From Mycobacteroides abscessus ATCC 19977 (GTDB taxonomy: Bacteria > Actinomycetota > Actinomycetes > Mycobacteriales > Mycobacteriaceae): DNA of 64,000 nt. Position numbers and translations under genes: made by a program. Shown here in pieces: positions 14,537 to 39,971 of this stretch (position 1 is the first letter of the stretch; every line of letters begins with the position of its first letter). Under the pieces are notes generated by a model. It was not told the DNA's origin, made no database searches, and worked only from the letters and a program-made list of their open reading frames with translations. Location of the stretch: positions 4,898,001 through 4,962,000 of the forward strand of contig NC_010397.1 of NCBI RefSeq assembly GCF_000069185.1. The letters are read 5' to 3'.

Positions 14537-15886
14537 TCAAACTGCCACACTGGCACTCGCGGGGCGCAGCCGTGCAATGATGCCGTCAAGGTCTAGTACG
14601 AACATGTCAGGCCGAAAGACATGGCCGCCTGGCTCTTCACGAAACTCATGTGGGATACCGGCGTCGCTGAGACGTCCGCGGAATTCGCGCTGGCCGGCAA
14701 GCACCTGAGTCTCTTGCACAGTGTCGAACCAGTTGACCGGATCCGGACTGGTGCCGGCGACCGTGAATATCCGCTTGTTCCGATAGCTCTCGATCCGCTC
14801 GACAGGATTGTCGGCACTGACCCTGGCCTCGTCCCAAGGGACGCCGTAGACGGTTGCACCGCCCAGTTCGACGGCCGCAGAACTCAAGTTTGCCCAATGG
14901 ACGACCAGGCCCCCGTCCCGACGAAGACTCGCCGGACCCGAATGGCTACTCACGGAGGCGAAGTGGCCGTAGTACTTGGCCGCATACTTCAGCGCACCGA
15001 ACCCACCCATCGAAAACCCGGAAACCGCGCGGCCGTCGTACTCCGCGTATGTTCGGAAGTTCGCCTCGATCCAGGGAATCAACTGGGCCATGTGGAACGT
15101 CTCCCAGTTTCGTGGACCGACAAACGAACCGACCGGGTTGCAGTACCAACCCGCCTGCCCGCCGTCAGGCATCACCACGATGATCGGCCTTCCCGCGGTT
15201 AGGTCTCTGATCCCCAGGAAATCGAACTGGCGGAAGTCGGCTGCTCCGCCGTGAAGCATGTAGAGGACGGGATAGGTGCGTCCGCTGGTGCGATAGTCGT
15301 CGGGAAGCAGAACGTTGACGCCCGGGTTCCAGCCGATCGCGTCGGTCTGGAATCGGTAGTACCACAGGCGCGGATCATCCTCGTTGCGATCCACGATCGT
15401 GAGCCCAAACCCATCACTGCGCCCACGGAATATGAGCAGCACCCGCCCGGCATCCAGGGCGGTGGGATCAGCGATCCCGTTGACGGCGGCAATCAGCCGA
15501 TAAAGCTCGGCATCACCATAGAAACGCAACGCCAACGCCGACAACGTATCCCCCGCAACCACCGTGTATCTCGTGACATCGGGAATGACCAGCCGCCGCC
15601 CCACACCAATGGCTCCAGGATCGGAAATCCCGTTGACGGCGGCAATCAGCCGATAAAGCTCGGCATCACCATAGAAACGCAACGCCAACGCCGACAACGT
15701 ATCCCCCGCAACCACCGTGTATCTCGTGACATCGGGAATGACCAGCCGCCGCCCCACACCAATGGCTCCAGGATCGGAAATCCCGCTGGCGGTGGCAATC
15801 AGCCGATAAAGCTCGGCATCACCATAGAAACGTAGCGCCAATTGCCACAATGTATCCCCGGCAACCACGGTATGTGTTCTGACCAT
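14537..15886 (-). CDS. Triple-LysM esterase (esterase D/antigen 85-like)
   Basis: 449 aa. Three LysM repeats of about 51 residues (YTVVAGDTLSALALRFYGD type) occupy roughly residues 1-152 and are expected to bind peptidoglycan. An esterase D/Ag85-type alpha/beta-hydrolase follows from about 160, with YMLHGGAADFRQ, the nucleophile GFSMGG and a C-terminal GGHVFRPD His region. No signal peptide is visible although LysM and the hydrolase imply a wall location, so export may be non-classical. ATG 15886 follows GAGGGG. The esterase might act on wall-linked esters. Confidence 0.88.
   Translation of the reverse strand: MVRTHTVVAGDTLWQLALRFYGDAELYRLIATASGISDPGAIGVGRRLVIPDVTRYTVVAGDTLSALALRFYGDAELYRLIAAVNGISDPGAIGVGRRLVIPDVTRYTVVAGDTLSALALRFYGDAELYRLIAAVNGIADPTALDAGRVLLIFRGRSDGFGLTIVDRNEDDPRLWYYRFQTDAIGWNPGVNVLLPDDYRTSGRTYPVLYMLHGGAADFRQFDFLGIRDLTAGRPIIVVMPDGGQAGWYCNPVGSFVGPRNWETFHMAQLIPWIEANFRTYAEYDGRAVSGFSMGGFGALKYAAKYYGHFASVSSHSGPASLRRDGGLVVHWANLSSAAVELGGATVYGVPWDEARVSADNPVERIESYRNKRIFTVAGTSPDPVNWFDTVQETQVLAGQREFRGRLSDAGIPHEFREEPGGHVFRPDMFVLDLDGIIARLRPASASVAV
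15480..15785 (-). repeat. Near-identical 153-bp tandem repeat encoding LysM units
   Basis: Two copies (15480-15632 and 15633-15785) share an essentially identical nucleotide sequence over most of their length, period 153 bp or 51 codons. A third copy (15786 onward) is more diverged. Nucleotide-level identity points to recent duplication or gene conversion, and copy number could vary between strains. Confidence 0.9.
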
Positions 15887-16354
15887 TTGGCTCACCCCTC
15901 AACGTTGAGACCGGCCCAGCTACCGCCAGCGCCGGCGGCCGAGCTGACACCATCAAGTGTAGGCGCACTGGAGCGGAAAAGCTTGAGTTACAAGGGATCA
16001 CATGCACCCCACTGATATCGCAGACGACTTTCCCCGTGTACGGGCGCTGGCTACTCGTTCCGTTTCGTCCGCGCCGGCGGCCTCAGATTGTCGGCCCCGA
16101 CGCGCCCAAGGTTCGCTGGCACTCCTTGGCAAGTGCCGCTGCGCAACGTGGAGTCACTCCTTAATGGCATGCCGATGCCAGCTCCTACATTTTTGGCAAA
16201 AGGATTATGGGCTAACCATTCTCGCAATCAATGTTGCCACCTGGTCTCCCGAGTAGAATGTGGGTACGCATCGGACTTCAACCTCCACACCGCGTGTTCG
16301 ATCGCGTCGACGGCTGGCATTACGCCGTACCGATGACGCGAGGAAGGACCCTGC
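15887..16354. other. Intergenic region without a supportable gene
   Basis: 468 bp between the divergent LysM-esterase and amidase genes. Short frames here have no family-like features. It presumably holds both promoters; no clear palindrome was found. Confidence 0.6.
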
Positions 16355-17203
16355 ATGCCGCAGACGGGACCTTGGACCGGCGATCCGGTTTGGATCGTCG
16401 ACATCCTGCGCGCCGAAGGGGTCAATCCCGTTGAATATCCCGGCTGGCGTGGCCGCGGGCACGGTGACTTCAAGGATATTCGCGGTGTCATGGTGCACCA
16501 CACCGGATCCGATAGCGCTAGTGCCGCCTCGATTGCCGAAGGTCGCCCTGATCTTGCGGGACCGCTATCCCAGTTGCACATCGCCCGCAATGGCGCGGTG
16601 ACCGTGGTCGCGGTCGGCGTCGCGTGGCATGCGGGAGTCGGTATGTACCCGTGGTTGCCGACCAACATGGGAAATTGGCACCTGATCGGCATCGAATGCG
16701 CCAACACCGGTACCAGTCCCACCGCTCCGCACCGCCAGAATTGGCCCGACGCACAATATTCCACCTTGATCAATTGTTGTGCGGCGATCAACCGACGGCT
16801 GGCGCAGACGTCCGCCCGCACCATCGGACACAAGGAGTACGCCGGCCGCGCTCAGGGCAAGTGGGACCCGGGAGCCATCGACATGGACGTCTTGCGACGC
16901 GATATCCAGGACCAGATCGGCCGCGTCGCCATACCGGCCCCGACACCGAGACCGTCTGTGCCGGTGGGTGAATATGCCGATGTTCTGCTGTTCCGCGGCT
17001 CCAAAGGTCCTCAGGTCTCCCAACTTCAGCGCCGTCTCAACGAGCACGGCGCAGACCTCGTGGTCGACGGGATCTTTGGTCCGAATACCGAAGCCTCCGT
17101 GAGGGAGTTCCAGCGCCGGGCCCGTGGCCTCAAGGTGGACGGTATCGTCGGCCCGGCCACCGCCGCCGCCCTGAGGTTGAAGGCGGAACCCGCGCTGGAG
17201 TAA
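16355..17203 (+). CDS. N-acetylmuramoyl-L-alanine amidase with peptidoglycan-binding domain
   Basis: 282 aa similar to mycobacterial Rv3594-like proteins. An amidase_2/PGRP domain (about 40-190) shows the Zn ligands VMVHHTG, WHAGVG and a late GHKEYAGRAQGKWDPG. A PG_binding_1 domain (about 210-275) carries LLFRGSKGPQVSQLQRRLN and VDGIFGPNTEASVREFQ. There is no signal peptide, as in phage-type lysins. GAGGAAGG precedes the ATG. It cleaves the amide between MurNAc and the stem peptide by family knowledge. Confidence 0.92.
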   Translation: MPQTGPWTGDPVWIVDILRAEGVNPVEYPGWRGRGHGDFKDIRGVMVHHTGSDSASAASIAEGRPDLAGPLSQLHIARNGAVTVVAVGVAWHAGVGMYPWLPTNMGNWHLIGIECANTGTSPTAPHRQNWPDAQYSTLINCCAAINRRLAQTSARTIGHKEYAGRAQGKWDPGAIDMDVLRRDIQDQIGRVAIPAPTPRPSVPVGEYADVLLFRGSKGPQVSQLQRRLNEHGADLVVDGIFGPNTEASVREFQRRARGLKVDGIVGPATAAALRLKAEPALE

Positions 17204-22977: not shown

Positions 22978-23973
22978 TCACTGTCCGACGATACCCGTGA
23001 GATCGTTGGGCGGGTCCGGACGCACGACGTAGACCCGGGTAGGGTTCACCAGCGGTTTATCCGCGGGACCTTTGGTATGTGGTCGTACATAGACCAGCTT
23101 GCGCTCTATGTTGCCAGGGCCACACGGCTGCATCCGCCAGTAGCCGCACACCCACCAGCGAAAGTCGTGGTCGCGACTCTGGAGGCCTGCGCCGCGAGCG
23201 GTAGTGCCCGGTGGGCGCAACAGGTCGATGAGAATGACCTCTGGGGGCTTGGGCGGTTCGTCCGTGCTCGACCGCGGCGCGCCCACACCATCTGCGGCAC
23301 CGAGCGCGGTCTGTGAAGTCATCCGCGGCTGCCCCATCGTCAGTAGTACCGAGGTAATGAGGGCAGCTCCGTGACTGTATTCGGCAGGTGTGAGCGCCGG
23401 GCCTGTGGGGTCGATCGAGGTAATGTTCTTCTCCCACATGGCTTCATCGGAATCGAAATTAAACCCGCCAACCCCGATCAGCGGAGCGTCCCCGCGTACG
23501 TCGCTGATCAGACTGCGTTGCCCGCTCATCCGGGACAAGATCTCGACACTGAATCGTCTGGTTTTGCGCCGTCGGTCGTAGATGTGTCCCCAGCACAGCC
23601 CATCCCATGTCACTTCCCGGGGCTTCCCGTCCGAGGCTGTCAGCCAGCGCCACTGCCCCAATGGACTTGCGAAACATAAGAATCCGTGCGCTGATACCTT
23701 GGCGCTGGCCAACACTTCTTCTGTCGTATGGTCGGGCACACCGCGAGCGGCCAGGCCTGCGGCTACATCGACGGCGGTCTTGTTCATCCAGTACAGGGTC
23801 GGCGACGCTGACATGAGCTCGATACCCGCACGCATCGGCACGAGCCGCGGATCCAACCCCATATCTTTTTCCTGCCGCAGGAATTGCAGATACCGGGTGA
23901 CCGATTGACGTGACTCATCGAGAATGTGTGCCATTCCGTACGGTGTCCAATTCCGCCGCCGATAGCTGCTCAT
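22978..23973 (-). CDS. Mobile-element-associated protein of unknown function
   Basis: 331 aa. An N-terminal HTH-like segment (SVTRYLQFLRQEKDMGLDPR) precedes a central domain (VPMRAGIELMSAS, WRWLTASDGKPREVTWDG). The C-terminus (RWWVCGYWRMQPCGPG, then YVRPHTKGPADKP and RVYVV) is a signature I associate with proteins of actinobacterial phages and integrative elements. Its start overlaps the stop of the 75-aa gene (ATGA), so the two are translationally coupled. Confidence 0.65.
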   Translation of the reverse strand: MSSYRRRNWTPYGMAHILDESRQSVTRYLQFLRQEKDMGLDPRLVPMRAGIELMSASPTLYWMNKTAVDVAAGLAARGVPDHTTEEVLASAKVSAHGFLCFASPLGQWRWLTASDGKPREVTWDGLCWGHIYDRRRKTRRFSVEILSRMSGQRSLISDVRGDAPLIGVGGFNFDSDEAMWEKNITSIDPTGPALTPAEYSHGAALITSVLLTMGQPRMTSQTALGAADGVGAPRSSTDEPPKPPEVILIDLLRPPGTTARGAGLQSRDHDFRWWVCGYWRMQPCGPGNIERKLVYVRPHTKGPADKPLVNPTRVYVVRPDPPNDLTGIVGQ

Positions 23974-24197
23974 GTCGCTACCCTCAAACTTTCACTTGGT
24001 CTTTTCGGCATCGGTGCGCCGGCCCCGTACACCATCGCAAACCTCACCGACACTGGCGCCGCCTGTGCGGCCATCCGTTCCAGAGCCCCCGGAGAGTGCG
24101 GGCGATAGAGATTCGAGATCGTCAAGCCTGGCCTATCGGTTAATTCAACGACCAGATGATCCGGCCTGGCTGGGAACTGGGGAGACCCAGTTCGCAT
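23970..24197 (-). CDS. Small protein coupled to the mobile-element gene
   Basis: 75 aa whose stop overlaps the next start as ATGA (23970-23973). Composition looks natural (DHLVVELTDRPGLTISNLYR, AAPVSVRFAMVYGAGAP). The coupling is the main evidence that it is real. It reads toward and slightly overlaps the untranslated leader of the divergent caspase gene. Confidence 0.5.
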   Translation of the reverse strand: MRTGSPQFPARPDHLVVELTDRPGLTISNLYRPHSPGALERMAAQAAPVSVRFAMVYGAGAPMPKRPSESLRVAT

Positions 24198-24236: not shown

Positions 24237-27200
24237 ATGAGCATTGAGGGCACCGAATCACTGTTTCTGGGTTTCGGTATGCAGACGTATTGCAACCAGC
24301 GTCTTAATGAGCTGGGAGGAACGGCCGCCGAGGTACATCAAGTGTCGCAACTTGTCGGAGACCATTTCACACCGGTCGTTTTACAGGACGCCACCGAAAC
24401 GCAAGTGCGCCAGGAGCTTAGGTCGCGTGCCGGCTACTTTTCCGCGGGCGAGGGCAAGCTGGTCATGATGTGGTCCGGCCACGGCAGGGAGGGCGCCGGA
24501 GATGACCTGTACCTGCTCAGTCACGATGACCCGACCATCGCTGGCCATGTGCTGACCGCGAACGAGGTAGCCGGTCACTGCGCAGCGACAGGCGCCAATC
24601 AGATGCTCTTCATTATCGACACGTGCTATTCGGGTAGGGCTCTGAGTGTGGGCTCTCGAATTGATGAATACTTCCGCGATCATCCCGCCGCGAGCGCAGC
24701 CACGTGGTGCGGAGTACTTGTCGCATGCGGACCGCGAGATGCAGCGCGCACGCGGGTGTTGGGTGAAGCAATAGTCCGACTGTTGCGCTACGGACCTCGA
24801 CTGGACGGTCCGCACGCCCAGGACGTACGGCGACGGTGGACTGTCCATCAGGAACTGATTCGCGGAGATGATCTCTGTTGGACACTCATCAAGGAGCTCG
24901 AACAGTTGCAGGTGGAACCGTTACCGACATTCGATGCGATTGGGCACTTTCCGCTGCCAATGATCCGTAATCCGCTGTGGCGGCCCGCAGCGACCGCCGC
25001 CACCGTGCGCGAGGTTTTGACAGCAACGCCATCGCGCCGACCATTTTTCGGGCGGCGTCGAGCCGTATCGACAATCTCAGAATGGATTGAGGCCTCGCAT
25101 TACGGAATCTATCTGATCACCGGTGGGCCCGGTGCGGGTAAATCAGCGCTACTTGCTCAGACGTTAAGGCAGGTACGGACCTCCTCTGATCGCCGGTCCG
25201 TAGCCGTCAGTGTGAACGTGAGCAACCTGAACCTGAACCGCATTGTTGTCTGCCTTGAGCAGGCGTTAGTCGATGTCGGTGTGCTGGATAGCCTCAGCCA
25301 TGGACGCAACCCGCTGGAGCTCTCAGGTGCGCTCAAGCGGTTGGTCGATGACGGCGAACCGGTACCGGTGGTTGGCATCGATGGGCTTGACCAAGCCACG
25401 GACGTTTCACGGGTTATCGATGAGCTCCTAACACCATTGAGCCGGGCAGCCAGAGTCGTGGTGGCGGCCCGGCCTATACAAGTGCCAAGTCCTCAGCAGC
25501 GGCAGGTGGCCAGGCCTGGTGAATGGTCTGTCCAGGCGGACCATATGCCGATCGCGGCTGTACTCACCGAACCGCAAAGGATGCTCGACCTGGACGCCAG
25601 CGAGCAGCGGGCATCCGGCTGGCAAGCCATCAAGGACCTGCTGAAGAGCCGACTGGCAGAGATCGACACAGACATTGATCATGCGGCCGTGTTCGACGCA
25701 TTGCAGCGAGCTCTTGAAGCGGGCAGCACACCACCGTTTGTGCTCGCGAACTTAGTCGTGGACCGTCTGCGCACTGCCAGCCCCGGCGTTGGAACACACG
25801 GATTCGATATTGCTGAGTCAGTAGGCGCCGCACTCGATGATCTGGTGGCGCTGTCCTACAACGACGCCGCACCTACTCGTCGCGCAAAGTGCCTGCTGCA
25901 GACGCTCGCCTTCGGGCTGGGTGCCGGGCTGCCGGAAGCCGAATGGCTCGCAATCGCTAACGGCGTCAGTTGGTTATCCGAGCAGCTCAGCCGCGAAGAC
26001 ATTGCTGATGTCCTTGCCGCACTAAGCGACTACATCGTCGAAGATTCCGAATCTGGCTATGCCACTTATCGTTTCTCGCATGCGCTGATCACTCAGCATT
26101 TCGCGAATCAAGCACGCGCACATGATGAAAGCGCGCCGCTACGCGTGGCCGCGGCGTTGACAGCGGCGGCACGGGCACTAAACCCGGCTCCACATCTGAC
26201 TAACAGTCCACACCTTCGTCGTTACCTGTGGTGTTACGTCGCCCAAGCAGCAGAACCTGGCCTGGATCTGCTGCGGGGTAACCCCTTGTTCGCGATGGAT
26301 CTAGTTGCGGCAGCGCTGGCCGTATCCGCAGCGCGTGCACAACAACGCCAACTCCCTGAGGCTACCCACCTGGCCGAAGAAGCCGTCACGCTTCTGACCG
26401 ACCTAGACCACACCACTGAACTCGACGAAGTACTGCCCAGAGTGCACTTGGCCGCCGTGCAGCACGCCGGTGGTGAAATAACCAATGCTGTCGAGAACCA
26501 GCGGCGGGCCGTGGAAATCATCGACCAGCACGGTGTGGCCGGGAGCTGGCAAAATTTCGACCACCCGGCGATCTTGTGTAACTACGCCAATATGCTGATC
26601 GATGCTCAGCGCCCGGATACAGCAATCACGGCAGCCCGCCAAGCCGTCGAACTTGAGGAAAAGTCCAAACGTGTTGGCGCCAATAATGGGCATCGGCTCG
26701 GAGCCGCACACAACACCTTGTCGCTGGCGTATAACTTGGCCAGACGACACTCTGAAGCCGTTGCGGCCAGCCGCGACGCGGTCCGAGCTTTGGAGAACAG
26801 CGTCAGCGAACGCGACAACGCGCTACTTGCCCAAGCCCTACAGAATCTGGGCAGCCGGCTCGCCGATGTCGGCAAGTGTGATGAAGCGCTAAATGTCACC
26901 GAACGCTCGCGTCGGATTGCCCGCGAACTGACCCAGGTCAATCCGATCTGGCGTGAAGTCCTACTCGGAGTGCTCGGTGATCTGGCTGTGCGCCACGAGC
27001 AATGCGGCTATCAAGAGCAGGCCCTTGCGTTGATGGCCACTGTGGTCGAAGAATACAGCGCTGTTTCCTTGCCGACAGCACACCAAGCAATCGATCGTGC
27101 AAGAGCATTGAGCAACTACTCTCACATGCTGCAACAGCAGGACCGATCCACCGCGGCATTGAAACCCGCGTATGAGGCAGTACAGATCATGGAAGAGCTC

Positions 27201-29093
27201 GCGGCACGCGAGAAGGCTCACCAACCCGCACTCGCGTTGACTTTGAACAACTATGCCAATGCGCTCACCAAAGCCGGCCACCACACCCTCGCTATGCAGG
27301 CCACAGAAAATGCACTGTGGTACTACCGGCAGGCATGGCAGACCAACCTCGGCCTGAATGTCGAGTTAGCGAAAATCCTCTGCAACTACAGCCATCGCCT
27401 TGCGGCTGCGGCACGTTTCACGGACGCGATCAATGCAGCCTCTGAAGCGATCACGGTGCTCCAGCCAACTGCCGCCGATGACCCACAAAAACAGGCCATC
27501 GTGTTCGGCGCTCAAGCCGACATCAACGACTACAGAAGGCAACTGGGCCTCCCGGGACAGAACGCATCCGTGACGAGAAACGTCACGCAACAGGCAGTGG
27601 CCCTCGCAGTGACCGGTGCGATGAGCCCAAGCCAACTAGCCGATCTATACACACAGACCGCTCGATCGTGCGCTGACGATCCAGCACAGGCGCTAGATCA
27701 TCTCGAACATGCGGTCGCGGTGCTTCGCGAAGCCGGTATGTCCAACACCTCCATGTATGGGAGGGCGTTGCGCAATACCGCGATGATGCTCGGCGAAACC
27801 CAACAGCTGGAATCGGCTCTGAACGCAGCAAGTGAAGCGGTACTGGTGTTCTCCAGGCTCGCCCAAGCTGACAGCTCACACCGCTATGCCTTGGCTTCCG
27901 CTCAGGGCACGCAGGCAAAACTTCTACAAGCCGCCCGTTGTCCCACACAAGCGCGGGACACGGCCATCGAGTCGCTGGACAATTTTTGTCGAGTGCCTCA
28001 GTGGACCTTTGAGGAAGTCGTCGAATGCGGACGACTTCTGGCACTGCTAGCAAGCATTCTGAGCGACTTAGGGCATGGACTCGCGGTGTTAGACGCGCAC
28101 GTCCAGCGGTGTGCCAGCAGATTGCACGGATACCTATATATGGTGCTGCACGCCAATGTGATACACGGACTACCTGCTAGCCATCCACGTACCCCAAGAT
28201 GGATATACGAGGCAATCAGCGCGATCGATGTCGCCGACCCGAAGCAAAGGTTCGGACTAGGCCAGCTTGCCCGGCCGATTCGCTCCACAGACCCAGCTCG
28301 TTTCGACGAATTATGGCAGCAAGACACCGGCGTCGATATCCCCAAGTGGATCACGATCGACGACGACAAAGTTCAACTAGCCCTTGCATGGATCTCCTGT
28401 CAAAACTACACTGCCGCAGCAGATTTCCTGCAACAGCACCCAGAGCTGCTCGGCGACGATTTCACCGCCGCGATCGATGAGGTCTACGCGCTCATAACCA
28501 CCGTAGAGCCAGCACGGGTTGATGCCCTACGCACCATTCGAGAACTCCCCCACACAAGCGTGGCATTCGATCTCGCTGAAGCTTTCCTCGCCGCTAACTT
28601 ACGGCATCGCCTGCAGATGCTAAACGAACACAGCACGTCGCTGCGCGTCGACTGGGTGAACCAGCATCTGCAAAAGCGGGTGGACAGCCCTCGTCTGCCT
28701 GCCGCGGCTGCACTCCTCGCGTTGCATGATCTCGGGCTGGGCAACCAAATCAATGCAGTTATCACCGCTGTCGACCGAGCTGAACAGCTACTGACCCAGC
28801 TCACCGTCCAGTACGGCACTGCGATAGTTCTCCTAGTAACAACCGTGCTCCTGGACATTTCCTCGGCCGATGCCACACCGGAAGTACGGATAACCGCTTC
28901 GTTTTACGTAGCAGCTGGGCTTGTCGATGCCGGTCTGCTAAAGCAGGCCCGTGAACTGATCACCACCATCTGTCAGCGGGCACCTCATCGCGTACTCGCC
29001 TGGAAAGAACTCTGTAACAGCCTATCTGGCGTCTGCCCTCATTTCCCTCGGGTCGCGGCATTGCTCGACCAATCGGTCGGCGCAAATGAGTAA
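24237..29093 (+). CDS. Caspase-like protease / STAND NTPase / TPR protein
   Basis: 1618 aa. Residues 1-200 form a caspase-like (peptidase C14) domain with LFLGFGM, the catalytic His82 in MMWSGHGREG and Cys130 in FIIDTCYSG. A STAND-type NTPase follows at about 280-680: Walker A GGPGAGKSALL (296-303) and Walker B VVGIDGLDQ with Asp382, then a winged-helix-like region with RFSHALITQHF. From about 700 to the end come tandem TPR-like helices (LQNLGSRLADVGKCDEAL, LNNYANALTKAGHHTLAMQA). This architecture matches predicted bacterial conflict/cell-death sensors, in which repeats sense a trigger, the NTPase oligomerises and the protease fires. ATG 24237 is chosen because it starts just before the first caspase strand. 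The gene overlaps the downstream lipase by 8 nt. Confidence 0.88.
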   Translation: MSIEGTESLFLGFGMQTYCNQRLNELGGTAAEVHQVSQLVGDHFTPVVLQDATETQVRQELRSRAGYFSAGEGKLVMMWSGHGREGAGDDLYLLSHDDPTIAGHVLTANEVAGHCAATGANQMLFIIDTCYSGRALSVGSRIDEYFRDHPAASAATWCGVLVACGPRDAARTRVLGEAIVRLLRYGPRLDGPHAQDVRRRWTVHQELIRGDDLCWTLIKELEQLQVEPLPTFDAIGHFPLPMIRNPLWRPAATAATVREVLTATPSRRPFFGRRRAVSTISEWIEASHYGIYLITGGPGAGKSALLAQTLRQVRTSSDRRSVAVSVNVSNLNLNRIVVCLEQALVDVGVLDSLSHGRNPLELSGALKRLVDDGEPVPVVGIDGLDQATDVSRVIDELLTPLSRAARVVVAARPIQVPSPQQRQVARPGEWSVQADHMPIAAVLTEPQRMLDLDASEQRASGWQAIKDLLKSRLAEIDTDIDHAAVFDALQRALEAGSTPPFVLANLVVDRLRTASPGVGTHGFDIAESVGAALDDLVALSYNDAAPTRRAKCLLQTLAFGLGAGLPEAEWLAIANGVSWLSEQLSREDIADVLAALSDYIVEDSESGYATYRFSHALITQHFANQARAHDESAPLRVAAALTAAARALNPAPHLTNSPHLRRYLWCYVAQAAEPGLDLLRGNPLFAMDLVAAALAVSAARAQQRQLPEATHLAEEAVTLLTDLDHTTELDEVLPRVHLAAVQHAGGEITNAVENQRRAVEIIDQHGVAGSWQNFDHPAILCNYANMLIDAQRPDTAITAARQAVELEEKSKRVGANNGHRLGAAHNTLSLAYNLARRHSEAVAASRDAVRALENSVSERDNALLAQALQNLGSRLADVGKCDEALNVTERSRRIARELTQVNPIWREVLLGVLGDLAVRHEQCGYQEQALALMATVVEEYSAVSLPTAHQAIDRARALSNYSHMLQQQDRSTAALKPAYEAVQIMEELAAREKAHQPALALTLNNYANALTKAGHHTLAMQATENALWYYRQAWQTNLGLNVELAKILCNYSHRLAAAARFTDAINAASEAITVLQPTAADDPQKQAIVFGAQADINDYRRQLGLPGQNASVTRNVTQQAVALAVTGAMSPSQLADLYTQTARSCADDPAQALDHLEHAVAVLREAGMSNTSMYGRALRNTAMMLGETQQLESALNAASEAVLVFSRLAQADSSHRYALASAQGTQAKLLQAARCPTQARDTAIESLDNFCRVPQWTFEEVVECGRLLALLASILSDLGHGLAVLDAHVQRCASRLHGYLYMVLHANVIHGLPASHPRTPRWIYEAISAIDVADPKQRFGLGQLARPIRSTDPARFDELWQQDTGVDIPKWITIDDDKVQLALAWISCQNYTAAADFLQQHPELLGDDFTAAIDEVYALITTVEPARVDALRTIRELPHTSVAFDLAEAFLAANLRHRLQMLNEHSTSLRVDWVNQHLQKRVDSPRLPAAAALLALHDLGLGNQINAVITAVDRAEQLLTQLTVQYGTAIVLLVTTVLLDISSADATPEVRITASFYVAAGLVDAGLLKQARELITTICQRAPHRVLAWKELCNSLSGVCPHFPRVAALLDQSVGANE

Positions 29094-30459
29094 CAACGAC
29101 CTAGTGGTAGTGATACCTGGGATCGGGGGCAGCACCCTCGAACGCGGCACCATCCCGCTGTGGTCTACCAAGCCGGGGAAGCTGATCACCGCTCTTACTG
29201 TGTTGACCACGCATCTTCAGACATTGCAGCTGCCTGACGGGATCGGCGATGAGGCCCCCGACGACGGGGTGCGGGCGGGCACGGCGATCTCAAGCCTGCA
29301 TGTAATACCGGGGCTTTGGTCACCAGCACACGGGTACCAACGACTTGTACGCCACCTGCAGCCTCTGTTCATGCCGACTAAGAGACATGCCCGGGGGTAC
29401 GCCATCACCAATCCTCTGGTTTTTCCTTATGATTGGCGCTTATCCAACCGATACACGGCGCGCCAGCTCAAAGTTTTCGTCGAGCGGGCTCTGGGCCAAT
29501 GGCGTGAGTACGCCCCCGAAAACCGTGACGCACAAGTCGTTTTCGTATGTCACTCCATGGGCGGTCTGGTGGCTCGCTGGTACATCAGCTGCGAGGGCGG
29601 GGCTGAACTGACACGCAAACTGATCACGCTAGGCACCCCTCACCGAGGGGCGCTCAAGGCGCTAGCGGTGCTGACTGAAGGCCCGTTGCCTCAGCTGGGC
29701 AGATTCGGCGAGTGGCTGCATCAGACGGCTATCTCGTTTCCTTCCATCGCCCAGCTACTGCCGAGTTATGCCTGTGTCAACGGCGAGCACGGGCCTGAAT
29801 ACCTTGTCGATCAACTCTGTTCACCATTGCCGACCAGATGTATCAAAGATTCGGCTCGGTTTTACCAGGAGCTGGAAGTTGCCGAAGACGCCGATAGCGG
29901 CAGCAGAAGCCGCACACACGTGATAATCGGAGGCAGCCAGAATACCGCCGTTTCGGCCACTCTATCCGGCGGCCGCTACAGATACTCGCTTCTGCTCGAC
30001 GGAATCGAGCCGGGTGGAGACGGCACCGTGTCGGCGGCGTCAGTACCGAAAGGTATTGCGCTCGACTCTAATTCGATCCGAAGAATCGCCGACAAGCACG
30101 GCAATCTGCACTGCAATAAAGCCGCCATCTACGAAATAGAATCGATCATCACTGCGGCGCCAATCATGATTAAAAGCTTTGCTTCACAAGATCTCTCGGT
30201 CTGCACGCCGGAACTGGTCTCCGCCGATCAACGTTTCAGTGCAACCATCACGTCCCCTTCAGGACGTTGCGCAGTAGAGATTGCCCTCTACGACGAACGC
30301 AACACTCAGGTTGAACGGCTCGTTAAGACAATCGGCACAGATCCGACGGTCTACACAACCGATCCTCTCAAACCAGGCGGGTACACATGCACCGTCCGTA
30401 AAACCAACGACCCACTCTCGGGGGTTACCTCACCATTCTTGGTGTGGGCTCGGCATTAA
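29086..30459 (+). CDS. LCAT-like lipase/acyltransferase with C-terminal beta domain
   Basis: 457 aa. It opens with LVVVIPGIGGSTL, typical of lecithin:cholesterol acyltransferase-like hydrolases, and has FPYDWRLSNR, the nucleophile CHSMGG (Ser157), LGTPHRGA, GGDGTVS (acid) and HGNLHCN (His). The first Gly of G-x-S-x-G is Cys. Residues about 365-457 form an Ig-like beta domain (RFSATITSPSGRCAVEIALY, GGYTCTVRKT). No signal peptide, so it acts in the cytoplasm. Its ATG lies inside the 3' end of the caspase gene (8-nt overlap), implying fixed stoichiometry; a membrane-lipid effector released by the caspase module is the natural inference. Confidence 0.88.
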   Translation: MSNNDLVVVIPGIGGSTLERGTIPLWSTKPGKLITALTVLTTHLQTLQLPDGIGDEAPDDGVRAGTAISSLHVIPGLWSPAHGYQRLVRHLQPLFMPTKRHARGYAITNPLVFPYDWRLSNRYTARQLKVFVERALGQWREYAPENRDAQVVFVCHSMGGLVARWYISCEGGAELTRKLITLGTPHRGALKALAVLTEGPLPQLGRFGEWLHQTAISFPSIAQLLPSYACVNGEHGPEYLVDQLCSPLPTRCIKDSARFYQELEVAEDADSGSRSRTHVIIGGSQNTAVSATLSGGRYRYSLLLDGIEPGGDGTVSAASVPKGIALDSNSIRRIADKHGNLHCNKAAIYEIESIITAAPIMIKSFASQDLSVCTPELVSADQRFSATITSPSGRCAVEIALYDERNTQVERLVKTIGTDPTVYTTDPLKPGGYTCTVRKTNDPLSGVTSPFLVWARH

Positions 30460-30539: not shown

Positions 30540-30938
30540 TCACCCGGCTGTCGCGAATTGCCTTGCTGCGGAGAGGATGCGCGGACCAACAGCCTCGATA
30601 TCACCTTCGCGTAACAGTCGCGCGGGCGATGCATCTCCCAATGCGGGGTTCAGGCCCTGAAACCATGCCTGCGCGACACTGGAGGGCCCGCGGGACATGA
30701 TCAGGCTGGCCGCGTGAAAGGCCAAACGGAGCCGTTCGATGTCCTCGGCGTTCGCGAGTTCACGGGTTCCCTCTGCCCACTGCTTAGCGGCGCGGGTTTC
30801 CTTGACTTTTCCGAGGTAGGCGACCAGCTTGAACCCGAGCTGGTCGGCCAGGGCCGTGACTAGTTCAGGGGTATTCATGGCGAGCGCTTCGCGGTGCAGG
30901 ACGAGGTCAGACATGGCTATCGAATCATCTATCGCCAT
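30540..30938 (-). CDS. Orphan Xre/MbcA/ParS-type antitoxin-like protein
   Basis: 132 aa in the longest frame (starts at 30938 or 30914 possible; no good ribosome-binding site, perhaps leaderless). An N-terminal helical region (ELVTALADQLGFKLVAYLG) is followed by AWFQGLNPALGDASPARLL and REGDIEAVGPRILSAARQF, the DUF2384/MbcA-type toxin-binding segment. Such antitoxins usually precede a RES-domain toxin, but none is adjacent. It is convergent with the lipase gene. Confidence 0.7.
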   Translation of the reverse strand: MAIDDSIAMSDLVLHREALAMNTPELVTALADQLGFKLVAYLGKVKETRAAKQWAEGTRELANAEDIERLRLAFHAASLIMSRGPSSVAQAWFQGLNPALGDASPARLLREGDIEAVGPRILSAARQFATAG

Positions 30939-33556: not shown

Positions 33557-34332
33557 ATGGCCAATGAAACGCTTGATGACGCCGACGATCAGTGGCTTCA
33601 TGATCTGAAATGCGCTCGTGCTGAAAAGAGCTATTTTGCTCTCACTCTGGGAGCGAACCGCCGCGGAAAGCCCTTCTGGGCCAGGCAGACACACTTTGTT
33701 GGCTGGTCCGAACGAAACCCTCGTTGGGAGATCAGGGAGGCCAGCCTCGTAGATGCGGGGTGGATGACGCAGTTATGGAACGAGATCGGCCAGACCTGGA
33801 TCGTCGTGCACGACGATCGTGCGCTTGCCGTTTTCCTGAGGTGGGGTGGAATGCGCTGGTTGAGAAGGAACTCGCCGAGGATCGCATACCCGATGTGATC
33901 GGTCCTTCCGAGTGCGTGCACGACGGGGGCCTAAAGGTTGGCGGTTTCGGCTTTCTGGGAACTGGGCACTTCCCCAACGACGCGATAGAGCGTCGTGCCC
34001 CCAGCCCGAAGCTCCGTATGCGGGTGATCAAACGGGATAAGTACCGGTGCGTGATATGCGGTCGTCGGGCGATGGATCACATCGATCTCGAGTTGCATGT
34101 CCACCACCTGATCCCGTGGCGCATGGCTGGTCCGACGGCGGAAGAAAACCTCGTTACCCTGTGTGGAACTTGCCATAAGGGGCTCCTTCCGGACTATGAA
34201 CCGATGTTGCGTGAGCTTGCGGCATTACCTGGCCCAGCAAGCTCGCTCCTGGAACGTACAACCGAGTTCGATGAAGAGGCCGCGCGGTACCGAGAATGGG
34301 TCGCCCAGCTAGACACTGGCCGCGACACCTAG
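33557..34332 (+). pseudogene. HNH endonuclease gene split by a frameshift
   Basis: The first frame begins at ATG 33557 (MANETLDDADDQWLHDL) and reads through QTHFVGWSERNPRWEIREAS to about nt 33840, then drifts to a stop at 33896. The -1 frame continues sensibly with GWNALVEKELAEDRIPDVIG and a full HNH domain: CVICGRRAMDHIDLELHVHH, then LVTLCGTCH. The parts join if one base was lost near GCCGTTTTCC at about 33828-33837. Programmed -1 slippage at the TTTT run or an assembly error are alternatives. The HNH part alone could be expressed from an internal start. Confidence 0.7.
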
Positions 34333-35619: not shown

Positions 35620-36366
35620 ATGCGTCGCAGCACTGGTATCGAATGGACAGAAGTCACCTGGAATCCGACGACTGGCTGCGACCGAGTGTCGACCGGATGC
35701 GACAACTGCTACGCCTTGGCAATGGCTAAGCGGCTCAAGGCCATGGGTTCTGCCCGCTACCAAGTTGACGGCGACCCACGCACCTCTGGCCCCGGCTTCG
35801 CCCTCCAGATTCATCCAGATGCATTGGATCAACCCTACAAGTGGTCCGGCAACCGGACCGTATTCGTCAATTCTATGAGCGACCTGTTCCACGCAAAAGT
35901 TCCACTTGACTTCGTGCGCAGCGTCTTTGAGGTGATCGAAGATACCCCTCGGCACACCTACCAGGTACTAACCAAGCGCTCGGCTCGCCTGCCCAAGATC
36001 GCCAACAAACTGCGGTGGCCCGAGAACTTGTGGCTGGGCGTAAGCGTCGAGGACCGACGGCATCTCGACCGGATAGATCACCTGCGACAGGTACCGGCCG
36101 CTGTCCGCTTCTTGTCATGCGAGCCGCTGCTGGGGCCCCTTAACGGGCTCAATCTTTCAGGTATCGGTTGGGTTATCACCGGAGGCGAATCTGGCCCCAA
36201 AGCCCGGCCACTCGATGAACAGTGGGTTCGCGATATACGGGATGCCTGCATCGAAAATGGTGTGCCGTTTTTCCATAAACAGTGGGGTGGTCGTACACCG
36301 AAAGAGCGCGGCCGGGTTCTCGACGGCATGGTGTGGGACGAAATGCCGCAAAAGTCTACGGCGTAG
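35620..36366 (+). CDS. DUF5131 (phage Gp37/Gp68) three-Cys protein
   Basis: 248 aa. The hallmark TGCDRVSTGCDNCYA gives Cys20-x6-Cys27-x2-Cys30 near the N-terminus, resembling a radical-SAM/Fe-S cluster site. WSGNRTVFVNSMSDLFH, YQVLTKR, LWLGVSVED, RFLSCEPLLGPL and WVITGGESGPKARP follow in family order. The activity is not established. These proteins are repeatedly found beside TcmP, here convergent and overlapping by 11 nt at the 3' ends. Confidence 0.9.
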   Translation: MRRSTGIEWTEVTWNPTTGCDRVSTGCDNCYALAMAKRLKAMGSARYQVDGDPRTSGPGFALQIHPDALDQPYKWSGNRTVFVNSMSDLFHAKVPLDFVRSVFEVIEDTPRHTYQVLTKRSARLPKIANKLRWPENLWLGVSVEDRRHLDRIDHLRQVPAAVRFLSCEPLLGPLNGLNLSGIGWVITGGESGPKARPLDEQWVRDIRDACIENGVPFFHKQWGGRTPKERGRVLDGMVWDEMPQKSTA

Positions 36367-37585
36367 CGCAAAGGCTCTGCTGATACAGCGCTTTGGACTT
36401 GTTGCGGGGCAACACTATTCCAGTTTCGCTTAACTGATCCCAGGCTCGTCGCAGTTCCGGCTCACCTGCCAGCGATAGTGTTGCACCCAGGATGGGTACA
36501 ACGTTTTCAGCAACGGGCAATACGCGGTGCTCGGCCACAAGTTCTTTGATGTTGGCACTGATGACGGCGATCCAGCTGTCCGCAAAGGCACGCTCCTGGG
36601 CGGCCGCTTCTTTCTCCCGCGACTCTTGGATCTGTTCAGTGAGATCAAACAGGGTTCCTTCGACCGGCAGGGTGGCGTCGGCAAGTTCTTTGGCCCGGAA
36701 AGTATCTCGCCACTTCCGGGTGGCGCGTCGCGCTGCATCCGCGAACTTGTAGCCGGCAACTGGGTGGCGATAGAACAATGTCAGATGAAACAGCGGTGGA
36801 TTTCCGTGTCTACGACGGACAGGAATCGATATGGATAGGCAACCGGTGGCGTCTGTGATCCGACGACGATACTGTTCGACGACGGCTGTGGCAGCGGCCG
36901 CGGCGGACGCTCCGTTTGCGTTTCGTGCCTCGTAGAATTCGCGGCGCCACCAGATGTCTCCGAAGAACCTGTCGACCCGTTCGACGCCTTTTTCTTGCCG
37001 CGTTTTTGCCACGATCTGGCCGTCACGTTCCTGCAGACATCCGCCCAGCCGCCAGACGGCTTCGAGGTTGATGTTGAGAAGCACTTCGGAAGGCGCTTGC
37101 TGACGTGTCCTACTCAGCAGAACGTCAGTTACCAGGTGGTTGGGCATCGCAATCCCGAAGGGGTCCAAGAACGTAATTGTTGGAGCGCCATTGACGCACT
37201 TCCACGCCTCATCGAGCCTTTCTTGGACTTCGCCGTTCAGCGGAACCAGAATCGCGCTGTCTTGTGCGAATTCCGTTAGCCCTTCGCGCAGGCTGCAGAA
37301 GTACGCAGGGTTGGCCTCAATGAAGATGCAACGCAGATCGCGTTTCCCGGTCGTGCGCCACCGTTGGGCCAGTCTGGCGGCGACGATCGGTGAACCCGGC
37401 ACCCGGGCGGTGTTGTCATCGCTCTGATACCAGCCTGGTCCTGCGTAGCCGTCAATTAACCAGATCGGCCCTTTGAATGCCGAACCCACCATAGAAGTGA
37501 ACACATTGCAGTACTCCTCAAGCACGGAGTGCTTAAGGACAGCAGCTGGTTGCTGCCTTTGAAAGAATTCGTCGTTGGACGTCAC
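36356..37585 (-). CDS. tcmP: Three-Cys-motif partner protein TcmP
   Basis: 409 aa from GTG 37585 (GAGGGGGG upstream). Family segments: LKHSVLEEYC, WLIDGYAGPGWY, GSPIVAARLA, CIFIEANPAYF, TITFLDPFGI and VLLNINLEAVWRLGG. The N-terminal half has a Rossmann-like, methyltransferase-reminiscent layout (DGYAGPG, then FIEAN). By definition it partners a three-Cys protein, here DUF5131 on the opposite strand. The joint function is unknown; a nucleic-acid or protein modification role in defence is speculation. Confidence 0.88.
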   Translation of the reverse strand: MTSNDEFFQRQQPAAVLKHSVLEEYCNVFTSMVGSAFKGPIWLIDGYAGPGWYQSDDNTARVPGSPIVAARLAQRWRTTGKRDLRCIFIEANPAYFCSLREGLTEFAQDSAILVPLNGEVQERLDEAWKCVNGAPTITFLDPFGIAMPNHLVTDVLLSRTRQQAPSEVLLNINLEAVWRLGGCLQERDGQIVAKTRQEKGVERVDRFFGDIWWRREFYEARNANGASAAAAATAVVEQYRRRITDATGCLSISIPVRRRHGNPPLFHLTLFYRHPVAGYKFADAARRATRKWRDTFRAKELADATLPVEGTLFDLTEQIQESREKEAAAQERAFADSWIAVISANIKELVAEHRVLPVAENVVPILGATLSLAGEPELRRAWDQLSETGIVLPRNKSKALYQQSLCATP

Positions 37586-38171
37586 CGATTTCCCCCCTCG
37601 CAGCGATCCGCGTATCTGCCCGTGTATCCGTAGCGTATGCCTTAAAGTTTCCGAGCTACGACTGATTCAGCTAAGACAACGCCGCATATGCATTCCGTCG
37701 TGCCGTGCTGCTGCTTCCGAACATGCGCAAAGCCAAAGCGAATGCCCGCTAGCAGCCGCCGTGGCGTGCACGGTGCCAGGATTCCGTTTCACTCGGACAG
37801 CCCGCCGGCCCGCAGCGTTGCCCCCGATCGCGGGCAGATATTGGATGCGAGTTCCCAAGTGCAATATCCAGATTCATGCGACAACGGTTCATAGAGGCTC
37901 GGATTGTTGACGTGGCGGCGAGGACAAGATGGACGTCTTTGCTTTCGTGCATCCGACAGCTATGAGCTATCTGCAGGGGTGTCAGCGCGCCAGATGTTGT
38001 GGGCAATCACGGCCCGGCCCAGTGCTAGAACCGTACGGAAGTCATCGCCGCTACTCATTTCGCCTCTGCTTGACGGTCCTGGACGCCTCTCGGCTTCTGA
38101 TGTGCAGGTAGGCAGACCACTGATACACACGGACGTTGTGTCGAAGTCGATTCGGTTACGTGGTGGCCGGT
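37586..38171. other. Gene-free stretch between TcmP and GGCT-HEPN genes
   Basis: About 590 bp. Several short frames exist on both strands but none has a ribosome-binding site or recognisable motif. It may contain the TcmP promoter on its left side. Confidence 0.5.
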
Positions 38172-39134
38172 TCAGTTGTCTGGCGGGGCGTTGAATTCGG
38201 TTTTGATTCGCCAATCGCGGATGCTGTCGGTGGGATCGGCGTGCATCCAGGTGTCGCTGATGGAGGGGATGGCGGCCTGCAGGTAGATGCGCAGTACGTC
38301 GTGCAGGTCGATCAGTGCGGTGCGAACAAGTTCTGCTTCGAGGGAGGCGCTCTTGCCGCGGTGCACCAGGTTGCTGCGGATCTGATAGGCCCAGTTGGCG
38401 AATTGATCGGCTTTATTCAGATTTACGCGCTCGCGTGGATTGTCTGCTCGATAGACAGCTCGGCGCGGGATCGGCACGCCAGCAGATTGCACCGCGGACA
38501 TGAATTGCGGTTGTCGGCCAAGAATGTTCACTTTCGTAGTGGGGCCGGCGTTGGGTGCGAGCCGGAATGCAATGCGCTCCAGGATTGAGCAGGCCAGCAT
38601 GTACGCCGCCTGTAGCCGGTAGAAACGCAGCCAGTGCACCGGTTCGTAGAGGGCTTGTCCTCCTTGAAAGGCTGCGCGTCCATCGTTTCTGAGTGTGTCG
38701 GTCACTGCAGCCAGACCGTAGGTCAGAAGCGGATCTTGCGTGCTGGTCCATGGTTCGTAGAGCACATCGCCGCCGCCGCGGTCAGGTGTGAGCCAGCCAG
38801 CTGCTACCAACGTGTTGGCTTTAAGTCTTGACGGTTCAATGCAAGTAACCTTTGCCCACTGGTAATAGGCCGTGGGTTCGAGCTCTCCAACCGCACGGTA
38901 ACCAGGGGCCGACAACGTCAAAAGGTGACCGCGAATGTGTCCGCGAGAACCCAAGTCGGCCAACGGCACTCCATCTCGCACCCACAAATGTCCGGTCACC
39001 GTCGCGGGCCGCGAATCACTGACCCACGGGGAGATCAACAGATGGCCGAGTTCACCTGGTTTGAGGTTCCCGTATACGAACAGCGGCAGGTTCGTCTCAA
39101 GCGGTGACCCGAGCCCGCTTGCGTCAGTACTCAA
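38172..39134 (-). CDS. GGCT/AIG2-like domain fused to a HEPN domain
   Basis: 320 aa from TTG 39134 (GGAG 8 nt upstream). Residues 17-120 resemble the gamma-glutamylcyclotransferase/AIG2 fold: PLFVYGNLKPGELGHLL, VTGHLWVRDGVPLADLG and YRAVGELEP. The catalytic Glu cannot be assigned with certainty. The C-terminal half is helical and contains WAYQIRSNLVHRGK with Arg253-x4-His258, the HEPN ribonuclease motif of Apea-like type. The helical part may be a toxin or RNA-cleaving effector. It lies 52 nt downstream of the AbiEi-type gene on the same strand, in the position normally taken by abiEii. Confidence 0.72.
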   Translation of the reverse strand: MSTDASGLGSPLETNLPLFVYGNLKPGELGHLLISPWVSDSRPATVTGHLWVRDGVPLADLGSRGHIRGHLLTLSAPGYRAVGELEPTAYYQWAKVTCIEPSRLKANTLVAAGWLTPDRGGGDVLYEPWTSTQDPLLTYGLAAVTDTLRNDGRAAFQGGQALYEPVHWLRFYRLQAAYMLACSILERIAFRLAPNAGPTTKVNILGRQPQFMSAVQSAGVPIPRRAVYRADNPRERVNLNKADQFANWAYQIRSNLVHRGKSASLEAELVRTALIDLHDVLRIYLQAAIPSISDTWMHADPTDSIRDWRIKTEFNAPPDN

Positions 39135-39186
39135 CCGTTGTCTCCATTCCGGCTGTCAAATACGTCGTACCCGTTGATTACTTCTA

Positions 39187-39840
39187 TCAGTGCCTGCCCG
39201 CCGACGTCAGCAATCGCAGTGCTAACTCGGTTCCGTTGCGGGCATTCCATGTATTGGCGTGCCGGTCCAGGCGTGCGTGAATGTCGTCGACATCTGCCAG
39301 GCCGCGATGCAGGGCATCTTCGATCGCTATGCCCAGATGGGAACCGTCGATGTGGGCGGCAGCCAAATCTTCAATCACCCGAGGCGCGGTAGCCACCGGA
39401 AGGCCCTCAACAAGTTGCCAATCTGCGTCGCACTCCCCGACGGGCTGCCGATGGGCCAGTACGCGCGCTGAGCGCACGTTGATTCGCCGGGGGCCACTCA
39501 AATGCAGGATGTCGTGACTCACGATCGTACCCAGGTCAAGGATTTCTGCGGCCGATTGATGGCTGATCACCACGTCGGGATCGCCGCGGCGCTCACCGAC
39601 GTCGGCAGCTGGCCGCAACGCAAGCCATTGGGCCGCCCAGTCCTCATACGGGTACTTATCGGCCGATTCATCCGTAAAGGCGTAGACGCCGTGACGGGCG
39701 CGCCACAGCTGTCCTGCGTCGGCCATGCGGGACAGCTCATAGCGCCGCACCCGAAGTGCGCGGGCCTGGTGGGCGGTGAATAACCCGAACTGATTGGCCG
39801 CGATCTGGCGCAGCCGTTCCCACCGCCCGTCGGGCTGCAT
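39187..39840 (-). CDS. AbiEi-type antitoxin
   Basis: 217 aa starting at MQPDGRW (39840). The N-terminal wHTH (LRQIAANQFGLFTAHQARAL, VRRYELSRMADAGQLWRARH, GVYAF) and DVVISHQSAAEILDLGTIV, LHLSGPRR and LPVATAPRVIEDLAA are classic AbiEi/DUF4095-type features. AbiEi antitoxins repress their operon and neutralise AbiEii nucleotidyltransferases. No AbiEii is present; the next gene is the GGCT-HEPN fusion. It is divergent from the helicase gene. Confidence 0.85.
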   Translation of the reverse strand: MQPDGRWERLRQIAANQFGLFTAHQARALRVRRYELSRMADAGQLWRARHGVYAFTDESADKYPYEDWAAQWLALRPAADVGERRGDPDVVISHQSAAEILDLGTIVSHDILHLSGPRRINVRSARVLAHRQPVGECDADWQLVEGLPVATAPRVIEDLAAAHIDGSHLGIAIEDALHRGLADVDDIHARLDRHANTWNARNGTELALRLLTSAGRH

Positions 39841-39971
39841 GCAGCGATAGTAGCAATGCGCTGGCCGGGGCAAAAATGCAAGACATAGGCTCACTGACGC
39901 CGAGGTAAACTCCGATGCGGAGCTGGGCAGCCCGAGAGGCGCGGAGGCCGGCGGGGAGGAGTGCTGGGACT

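Follow-up and report, generated by a model that had tools for sequence, protein, structure and literature searches.

The window analysed here is a 64,000-nucleotide (nt) stretch of Mycobacteroides abscessus ATCC 19977 (NC_010397.1, positions 4,898,001 to 4,962,000). It carries two overlapping genes, one encoding a caspase-STAND-TPR protein and the other an LCAT-like lipase with a C-terminal macroglobulin-like domain (Table 1). The caspase-STAND and lipase genes are a conserved two-gene unit, and the catalytic residues of the pair are intact. We give an even chance to the reading that the pair is a compact two-gene NLR-like conflict (cell-death) system, in which the caspase would cut the lipase after K363 and free a phospholipase.

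Conservation and anatomy of the gene pair

An earlier note, made from the letters of this DNA, had made the two-gene system depend on the homologues being neighbours in other genomes. The adjacency is kept, in 22 of 24 canonical loci versus 0 of 47 distant ones. Loci were called canonical when the lipase scored more than 370 bits. The caspase lies nearby in 17 of the 19 canonical loci (exceptions L006 and L014) and in all five further distinct loci; L130 and L011 are one record and entered the count a single time, and L002 duplicates L109. The caspase profile had no match in the 47 loci of distant LCAT-like hydrolases (11 of less than 10 kb, 25 of at least 15 kb), a control that is indicative, given these short loci and a profile built from the canonical loci. 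Among 20 lipases whose similarity is intermediate (L017-L036), eight have a caspase-profile match nearby, and L018, L020, L023 and L026 lie next to CHAT, STAND-HEAT or nSTAND proteins.

The same pairing was seen at genome level. With the lipase alone as bait, 14 of 397 genomes sampled from the order gave a match at E<1e-40 and six at E<1e-100, a cut chosen after the gap between the six matches (1.5e-160 or better) and the next best (1.2e-85) was visible. The caspase domain (E<1e-8) was found in exactly these six genomes and nearby in each. The two genes are neighbours in five and lie 8 kb apart in G461, because the receptor is split there into three consecutive genes. Weaker order-level matches (G177, G065, G368, G380, G401, G404, G504) were left out of the follow-up, and G023 was taken in (L110). 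Among 200 genomes of a second family, the lipase occurs in seven and the caspase in nine, and all seven lipase genomes have a caspase no more than about 5 kb away. Of 301 genomes from the host's own family, two (the host counted) gave the lipase at E<1e-60. The class-level search (E<1e-100) returned the host's own genome alone among 394; here and in the order-level search few candidates were scored per genome at first look, so misses are possible.

Conserved pairing may also arise with parallel effectors. The caspase would then degrade many proteins or another specific target, the lipase would act independently, and the pairing would serve dosage and joint transfer. Related caspases in G1100, G1125 and the second locus of G1002 have no lipase-family match in the 19 kb examined, and the available text of Kaur et al. 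(2020, PMC7159879) proposes that caspase autoproteolysis deploys effectors in EACC1 systems; both agree with such independence. The two genes stay close whichever comes first, and this, together with the linker residue described below, favours direct action instead; we consider parallel effectors distinctly unlikely.

Table 1. Features of the gene pair in the window (residue numbers refer to the respective protein).
Feature	Position	Strand	Details
Caspase-STAND-TPR protein, 1618 amino acids (aa)	24237..29093	+	open reading frame (ORF)
Caspase domain (MALT1/metacaspase-like)	24261..24986	+	residues ~9-250; H82, D128-x-C130, acidic E32
STAND NTPase and winged-helix region	25038..26156	+	residues ~268-640, approximate borders; Walker A 296-303, Walker B D382-G-L-D
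TPR/alpha-helical repeat region, presumed sensor	26334..29090	+	residues ~700-1618; TPR matches over part only
8-nt overlap ATGAGTAA	29086..29093	+	stop of caspase-STAND-TPR gene, start of lipase gene
LCAT / lysosomal phospholipase A2-like hydrolase with C-terminal macroglobulin-like domain, 457 aa	29086..30459	+	ORF
Hydrolase domain	29092..30162	+	residues 3-359; catalytic S157, D312, H338
Flexible linker with K363-S364, candidate caspase cut site	30163..30189	+	residues 360-368
Ig-like (macroglobulin-type) domain	30175..30456	+	residues 364-457

The anatomy given in the earlier note stood up well. Its architecture of caspase, STAND ATPase and TPR repeats is borne out by domain matches and motifs, its residue numbers (H82, C130, Walker A 296-303, D382, S157) are correct, and its 8-nt overlap (ATGAGTAA, 29086..29093) is present. 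The LCAT-like lipase with a C-terminal Ig-like domain is likewise real, and a fold match identifies the Ig-like domain as macroglobulin-like. In the first protein the caspase domain and the TPRs score above the Pfam cut-off, and AAA_16/NACHT is sub-threshold. A C14 fold with a His/Cys dyad makes the protease domain a member of the metacaspase/paracaspase side of the caspase superfamily (peptidase C14). Walker A, Walker B with DGxD/E, the STAND/AP-ATPase fold and the repeat sensor place the central part among the STAND NTPases. An in-frame ATG upstream at 24156 is an alternative start that gives 1645 aa. The lipase scores above the Pfam cut-off for both LCAT and PGAP1, and its LCAT fold with a catalytic triad assigns it to the LCAT / PLA2G15 hydrolases. 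Each protein has a single match in its own assembly (E<0.001). Chance or an annotation artefact is ruled out by the conserved frames, motifs and pairing. The overlap makes translational coupling of the two genes likely. Spacing at 14 directly adjoining same-strand junctions (the window and 13 relatives) ranges from a 17-nt overlap to a 5-nt gap.

The lipase linker and the specificity of the caspase

The lipase linker was compared in 111 full-length relatives, taken from the best 120 of 3,695 matches after nine outside 430-500 aa were dropped. In these best-matching relatives the K363 column is basic in 110 of 111 (70 Lys, 40 Arg), the single exception being Met, and the next residue is Ala in 91 and Gly in 11. 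No other lipase column in the set combines at least 95% K/R with a real mixture of the two. The AlphaFold model of the lipase is least confident in segment 363-367, with a predicted local distance difference test score (pLDDT) below 50, and this segment lies where the two matched folds (hydrolase and macroglobulin-like) adjoin. A basic linker residue is present in 18 of 19 canonical lipases versus 3 of 21 distant ones, and in three of the five further distinct loci; the other two, L129 and L131, have Asp.

The caspase profile can be aligned to both plant metacaspase-4 and human MALT1, and by sequence E32 and D128 of the window protein lie opposite acids of MALT1, which we take to be D365 and D462 of its S1 pocket. 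Acidic S1 positions confer Arg/Lys preference on proteases of the MALT1/metacaspase type, and we infer that the caspase is Arg/Lys-specific. The earlier note had predicted a caspase cut at about residue 365. That site gains support from the near-invariant basic K363 in a flexible linker and from the caspase acids aligned with those of MALT1, and K363-S364 is a candidate cut site; cleavage itself stays a prediction.

D128 is invariant in 15 sequences. Position 32 is acidic (Asp/Glu) in 17 of 29 paired loci, all 17 with a linker K/R, and non-acidic in 12, of which three (all Gln) have a linker K/R and nine do not (Fisher p 2e-5, uncorrected for kinship). Two loci were left out of this table. L025 has two separate acid-bearing caspases and lacks a linker K/R; L029 has the acid, and its lipase is too short to show the linker position. 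The caspases of L133, L134 and L135, from genomes G1100, G1125 and G1002, also stood outside the comparison, having no lipase-family match in their 19 kb (L133:8850-13487, L134:8958-10475, L135:8381-10723). Four of five neighbours scanned at these loci are without a Pfam match, and one is M48-peptidase-like.

In L129 and L131, where the lipase gene comes first, the caspase has Leu at the S1-acid position and the lipase linker has Asp in place of the usual Lys/Arg. A specificity switch is possible in these two loci.

Several observations weigh against cleavage after the linker residue, against its coupling to the pocket, or against a defence role. The Asp of L129 and L131 departs from the basic rule, the linker Arg of L105 is followed by Pro, which makes cutting unlikely, and L006 and L014 keep a linker Arg with no caspase in the DNA stretch examined. 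Three Gln-32 loci likewise retain the linker Arg. When L025 and L029 are counted as contrary, p moves from 2e-5 to 5e-4 (again uncorrected for kinship), and the canonical clade alone is weak (17/17 vs 3/6, Fisher p 0.011). One distant group supplies five of the nine negatives; its caspases score just 22-60 bits, and two of the five (L031, L032) have no readable Cys motif. The hydrolase-domain tree needs just about three changes of linker state, and so few independent events. The caspase model fits Asp-specific caspases almost as closely as it fits MALT1. Neither the caspase-STAND-TPR protein nor the lipase matches PADLOC. Because of the weakly matching distant negatives and the approximately three linker-state changes, the partial association between position 32 and the linker is graded as suggestive of real covariation, not as proof.

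Some of these observations suit a lipase effector that is activated uncut. Its macroglobulin-like domain would dock on the STAND ring, the caspase would mainly process itself or host proteins, and the linker Lys/Arg would have a docking or structural role. The basic residue persists in L006 and L014, as well as in three loci whose caspase has no acid at position 32. Moreover, distant lipases, mostly without a basic linker, lie beside CHAT, nSTAND or STAND-HEAT proteins. Packing, however, hardly explains why a residue in such a low-confidence stretch is nearly invariant and yet free to be either Lys or Arg, and the S1 position and the linker residue change together in L129/L131 and L015. Uncut activation is in our judgement unlikely.

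In the preferred reading, activation by cutting, the TPR array would sense a trigger, and the STAND ATPase would swap its nucleotide and oligomerise, as the Apaf-1/NLR fold suggests. Oligomerisation would gather the N-terminal paracaspase-like domains, and the Arg/Lys-type caspase would then cleave the co-translated lipase after K363 in the linker. By this cut the macroglobulin-like domain, possibly an inhibitor or a targeting prodomain, would be severed from the phospholipase A2/LCAT-like domain, and the released phospholipase would attack the membrane of its own cell. The lipase would thus be activated by cutting, with abortive infection as the putative outcome.

Sensors, gene order and genomic neighbourhood

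The pair is a two-gene core with exchangeable sensors. The lipase gene comes first in L008, L012, L013, L016, L129 and L131, and the two genes lie on opposite strands in L011 and L015. In the receptors scanned with Pfam, the region after the ATPase holds TPR in L109, L005, L104, L007, L016 and L013, WD40 in L015, L017 and L021, and FGE-sulfatase plus TPR in L008, a metagenome-assembled genome (MAG) labelled Desulfosudis (Desulfobacterota). L105 has its TPR in separate genes, and the same scan found no sensor module within the caspase genes of L129 and L131. The picture in the earlier note is corrected in two points, as among loci the sensor varies and the gene order flips; the pairing holds.

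Window ORFs of at least 100 aa with starts at 14-45 kb were compared with six related loci (L004, L005, L104-L106, L109), some of which have little flank. Among them only the caspase-STAND-TPR protein and the lipase have relatives in the six loci, and a third conserved gene common to all was rejected on this comparison. Flanking genes vary among relatives (COX1, asparagine synthase, UDG).

Individual loci showed further arrangements. Receptors are split at L105:9405-17991 (-) and L127:8117-12922 (-), where one or two more genes accompany the caspase gene and the lipase is still adjacent. The CHAT-domain protein at L016:5567-6367 (+) is encoded by a third gene of the operon, which shares 4 nt with the end of the caspase-STAND gene. 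L008:6429-9626 (+) encodes a metallophosphatase-NACHT-FGE-sulfatase protein of similar build beside the caspase-STAND-FGS/lipase pair, as if the two receptor systems had one common sensor type. At L110:4136-10620 (-) a distant lipase has a CHAT-STAND protein and a trypsin-nuclease fusion as neighbours, an arrangement reminiscent of the NucA-peptidase systems named in the available text of Kaur et al. (2020, PMC7159879).

In the window, the pair adjoins a defence-type cluster located 5-12 kb downstream (35620-42509). PADLOC reported a PDC-M41B/PDC-M30B-like protein at 35620-36366 (359 bits), a weaker PDC-M30A match at 36356-37585, AbiEi at 39187-39894 (229 bits) and PDC-S28 (DEAD helicase) at 39915-42509 (856 bits). 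This neighbourhood of known and candidate defence genes agrees with the abortive-infection idea of the earlier note.

A role other than defence was also considered, namely that actinomycetes use the module for regulated lipid remodelling or for programmed death in development. Such a module would fit the close loci, which are mostly from Actinomycetota, and the absence of a PADLOC match for both proteins and of a lipase match in phage records. It sits poorly with the sporadic distribution (2/301 genomes of the host's family, host counted), the swapping of sensor modules among loci, the L008 pair, which comes from a MAG of the Desulfobacterota and has a phosphoesterase-NACHT protein next to it, and the AbiEi- and PDC-type genes that follow the window pair. 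We regard it as highly improbable.

Nine plasmid records gave distant lipase matches and none matched the caspase-STAND part, and viral contigs gave six weak loci. Phage or plasmid carriage was rejected on the null result for the lipase in phage records and on plasmid records with distant lipase matches only and no caspase-STAND. Two flank searches for a genomic-island boundary revealed no clear empty site. An HNH endonuclease gene (33724-34332, +; Pfam HNH 42 bits, cut-off 21.4) lies between the pair and the defence cluster. The small ORF directly after the lipase (30540-30938, -) has a sub-threshold match to the Xre/MbcA/ParS antitoxin C-terminal domain. Upstream, positions 14537-17203 encode a LysM-esterase protein and an amidase with a peptidoglycan-binding domain.

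Relation to known systems

The hydrolase resembles lysosomal phospholipase A2, LCAT and Tle4 in its fold and its catalytic Ser-Asp-His. Unlike them, it has an added C-terminal macroglobulin-like domain and, by eye, no evident signal peptide. The receptor resembles Apaf-1 and NLR-type STAND receptors in its STAND ATPase fold, repeat region and link to a caspase; unlike in those receptors, the caspase forms part of the receptor chain itself, and the apparent substrate of this caspase is a lipase. In bacterial gasdermin systems, a caspase-like protease from the same operon removes the C-terminal inhibitory part of a membrane-damaging effector. The window pair would work in the same way, with an LCAT/phospholipase-like enzyme and a macroglobulin-like domain in place of the gasdermin pore. 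It is not itself a bacterial gasdermin system, since the partner is an LCAT-fold hydrolase, not a gasdermin-type pore former.

The available text of Kaur et al. (2020, PMC7159879) states that the caspase domains in VMAP systems always adjoin an alpha/beta-hydrolase gene, suggests joint action of the two, and describes EACC1-caspase two-gene systems with variants that contain STAND. The available part of a second study (eLife 2021, PMC8195603) includes caspases and membrane-lipid alpha/beta-hydrolases in its effector lists and places caspases next to AP-ATPases. The window pair is like the VMAP (MoxR-vWA) ternary systems in having a caspase-superfamily domain with a neighbouring alpha/beta-hydrolase gene, and unlike them in that its caspase is mounted on a STAND-TPR receptor. 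This likeness is at the alpha/beta-hydrolase level only, as the main text of PMC7159879, so far as available, has no words beginning with 'lipase' or 'LCAT'. Membership in the VMAP ternary systems was rejected, with no MoxR, vWA or VMAP Pfam match among 26 window proteins scanned. Like the EACC1-caspase systems of the same text, the pair has a caspase at the N-terminus, followed in the same protein by a C-terminal part that varies and may include STAND NTPases; its constant partner is a lipase, in contrast to the membrane protein EACC1. Membership there was likewise rejected for this locus (NCBIfam NF047832, 39.3 against a cut-off of 140), and neither the ORF at 22978-23973 nor five small plus-strand ORFs upstream, where an EACC1 gene was looked for, had any Pfam match.

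The partnership of caspase and hydrolase is therefore of a known kind, because caspase/alpha-beta-hydrolase pairs and caspases beside AP-ATPases are in print in the available text of PMC7159879 and PMC8195603. The earlier note had offered the caspase-lipase pairing as its own inference; the pairing is confirmed here, and its novelty is reduced by the caspase/alpha-beta-hydrolase pairs that the available text of Kaur et al. (2020, PMC7159879) describes for other bacterial conflict systems. The window pair is a variant, a stand-alone caspase-STAND protein with a macroglobulin-bearing lipase that has a specific linker site. In a limited literature search, a stand-alone caspase-STAND with an LCAT/PLA2-macroglobulin lipase and a linker site was not found in the available text of either article.

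We place somewhat short of even the chance that the pair represents a pyroptosis-like pathway, in which an NLR receptor's own Arg/Lys paracaspase would free a phospholipase zymogen from a macroglobulin-like prodomain, pocket and site co-evolving across bacteria. The predicted substrate and site (K363-S364) are directly testable, and L129/L131, with Asp in the linker and a changed S1 position, would offer natural specificity variants. If the reading is true, a dedicated substrate would be named for a bacterial NLR-caspase, and the logic of receptor, caspase and proteolytic release of a membrane killer would have been solved also by a phospholipase, not by a gasdermin pore.

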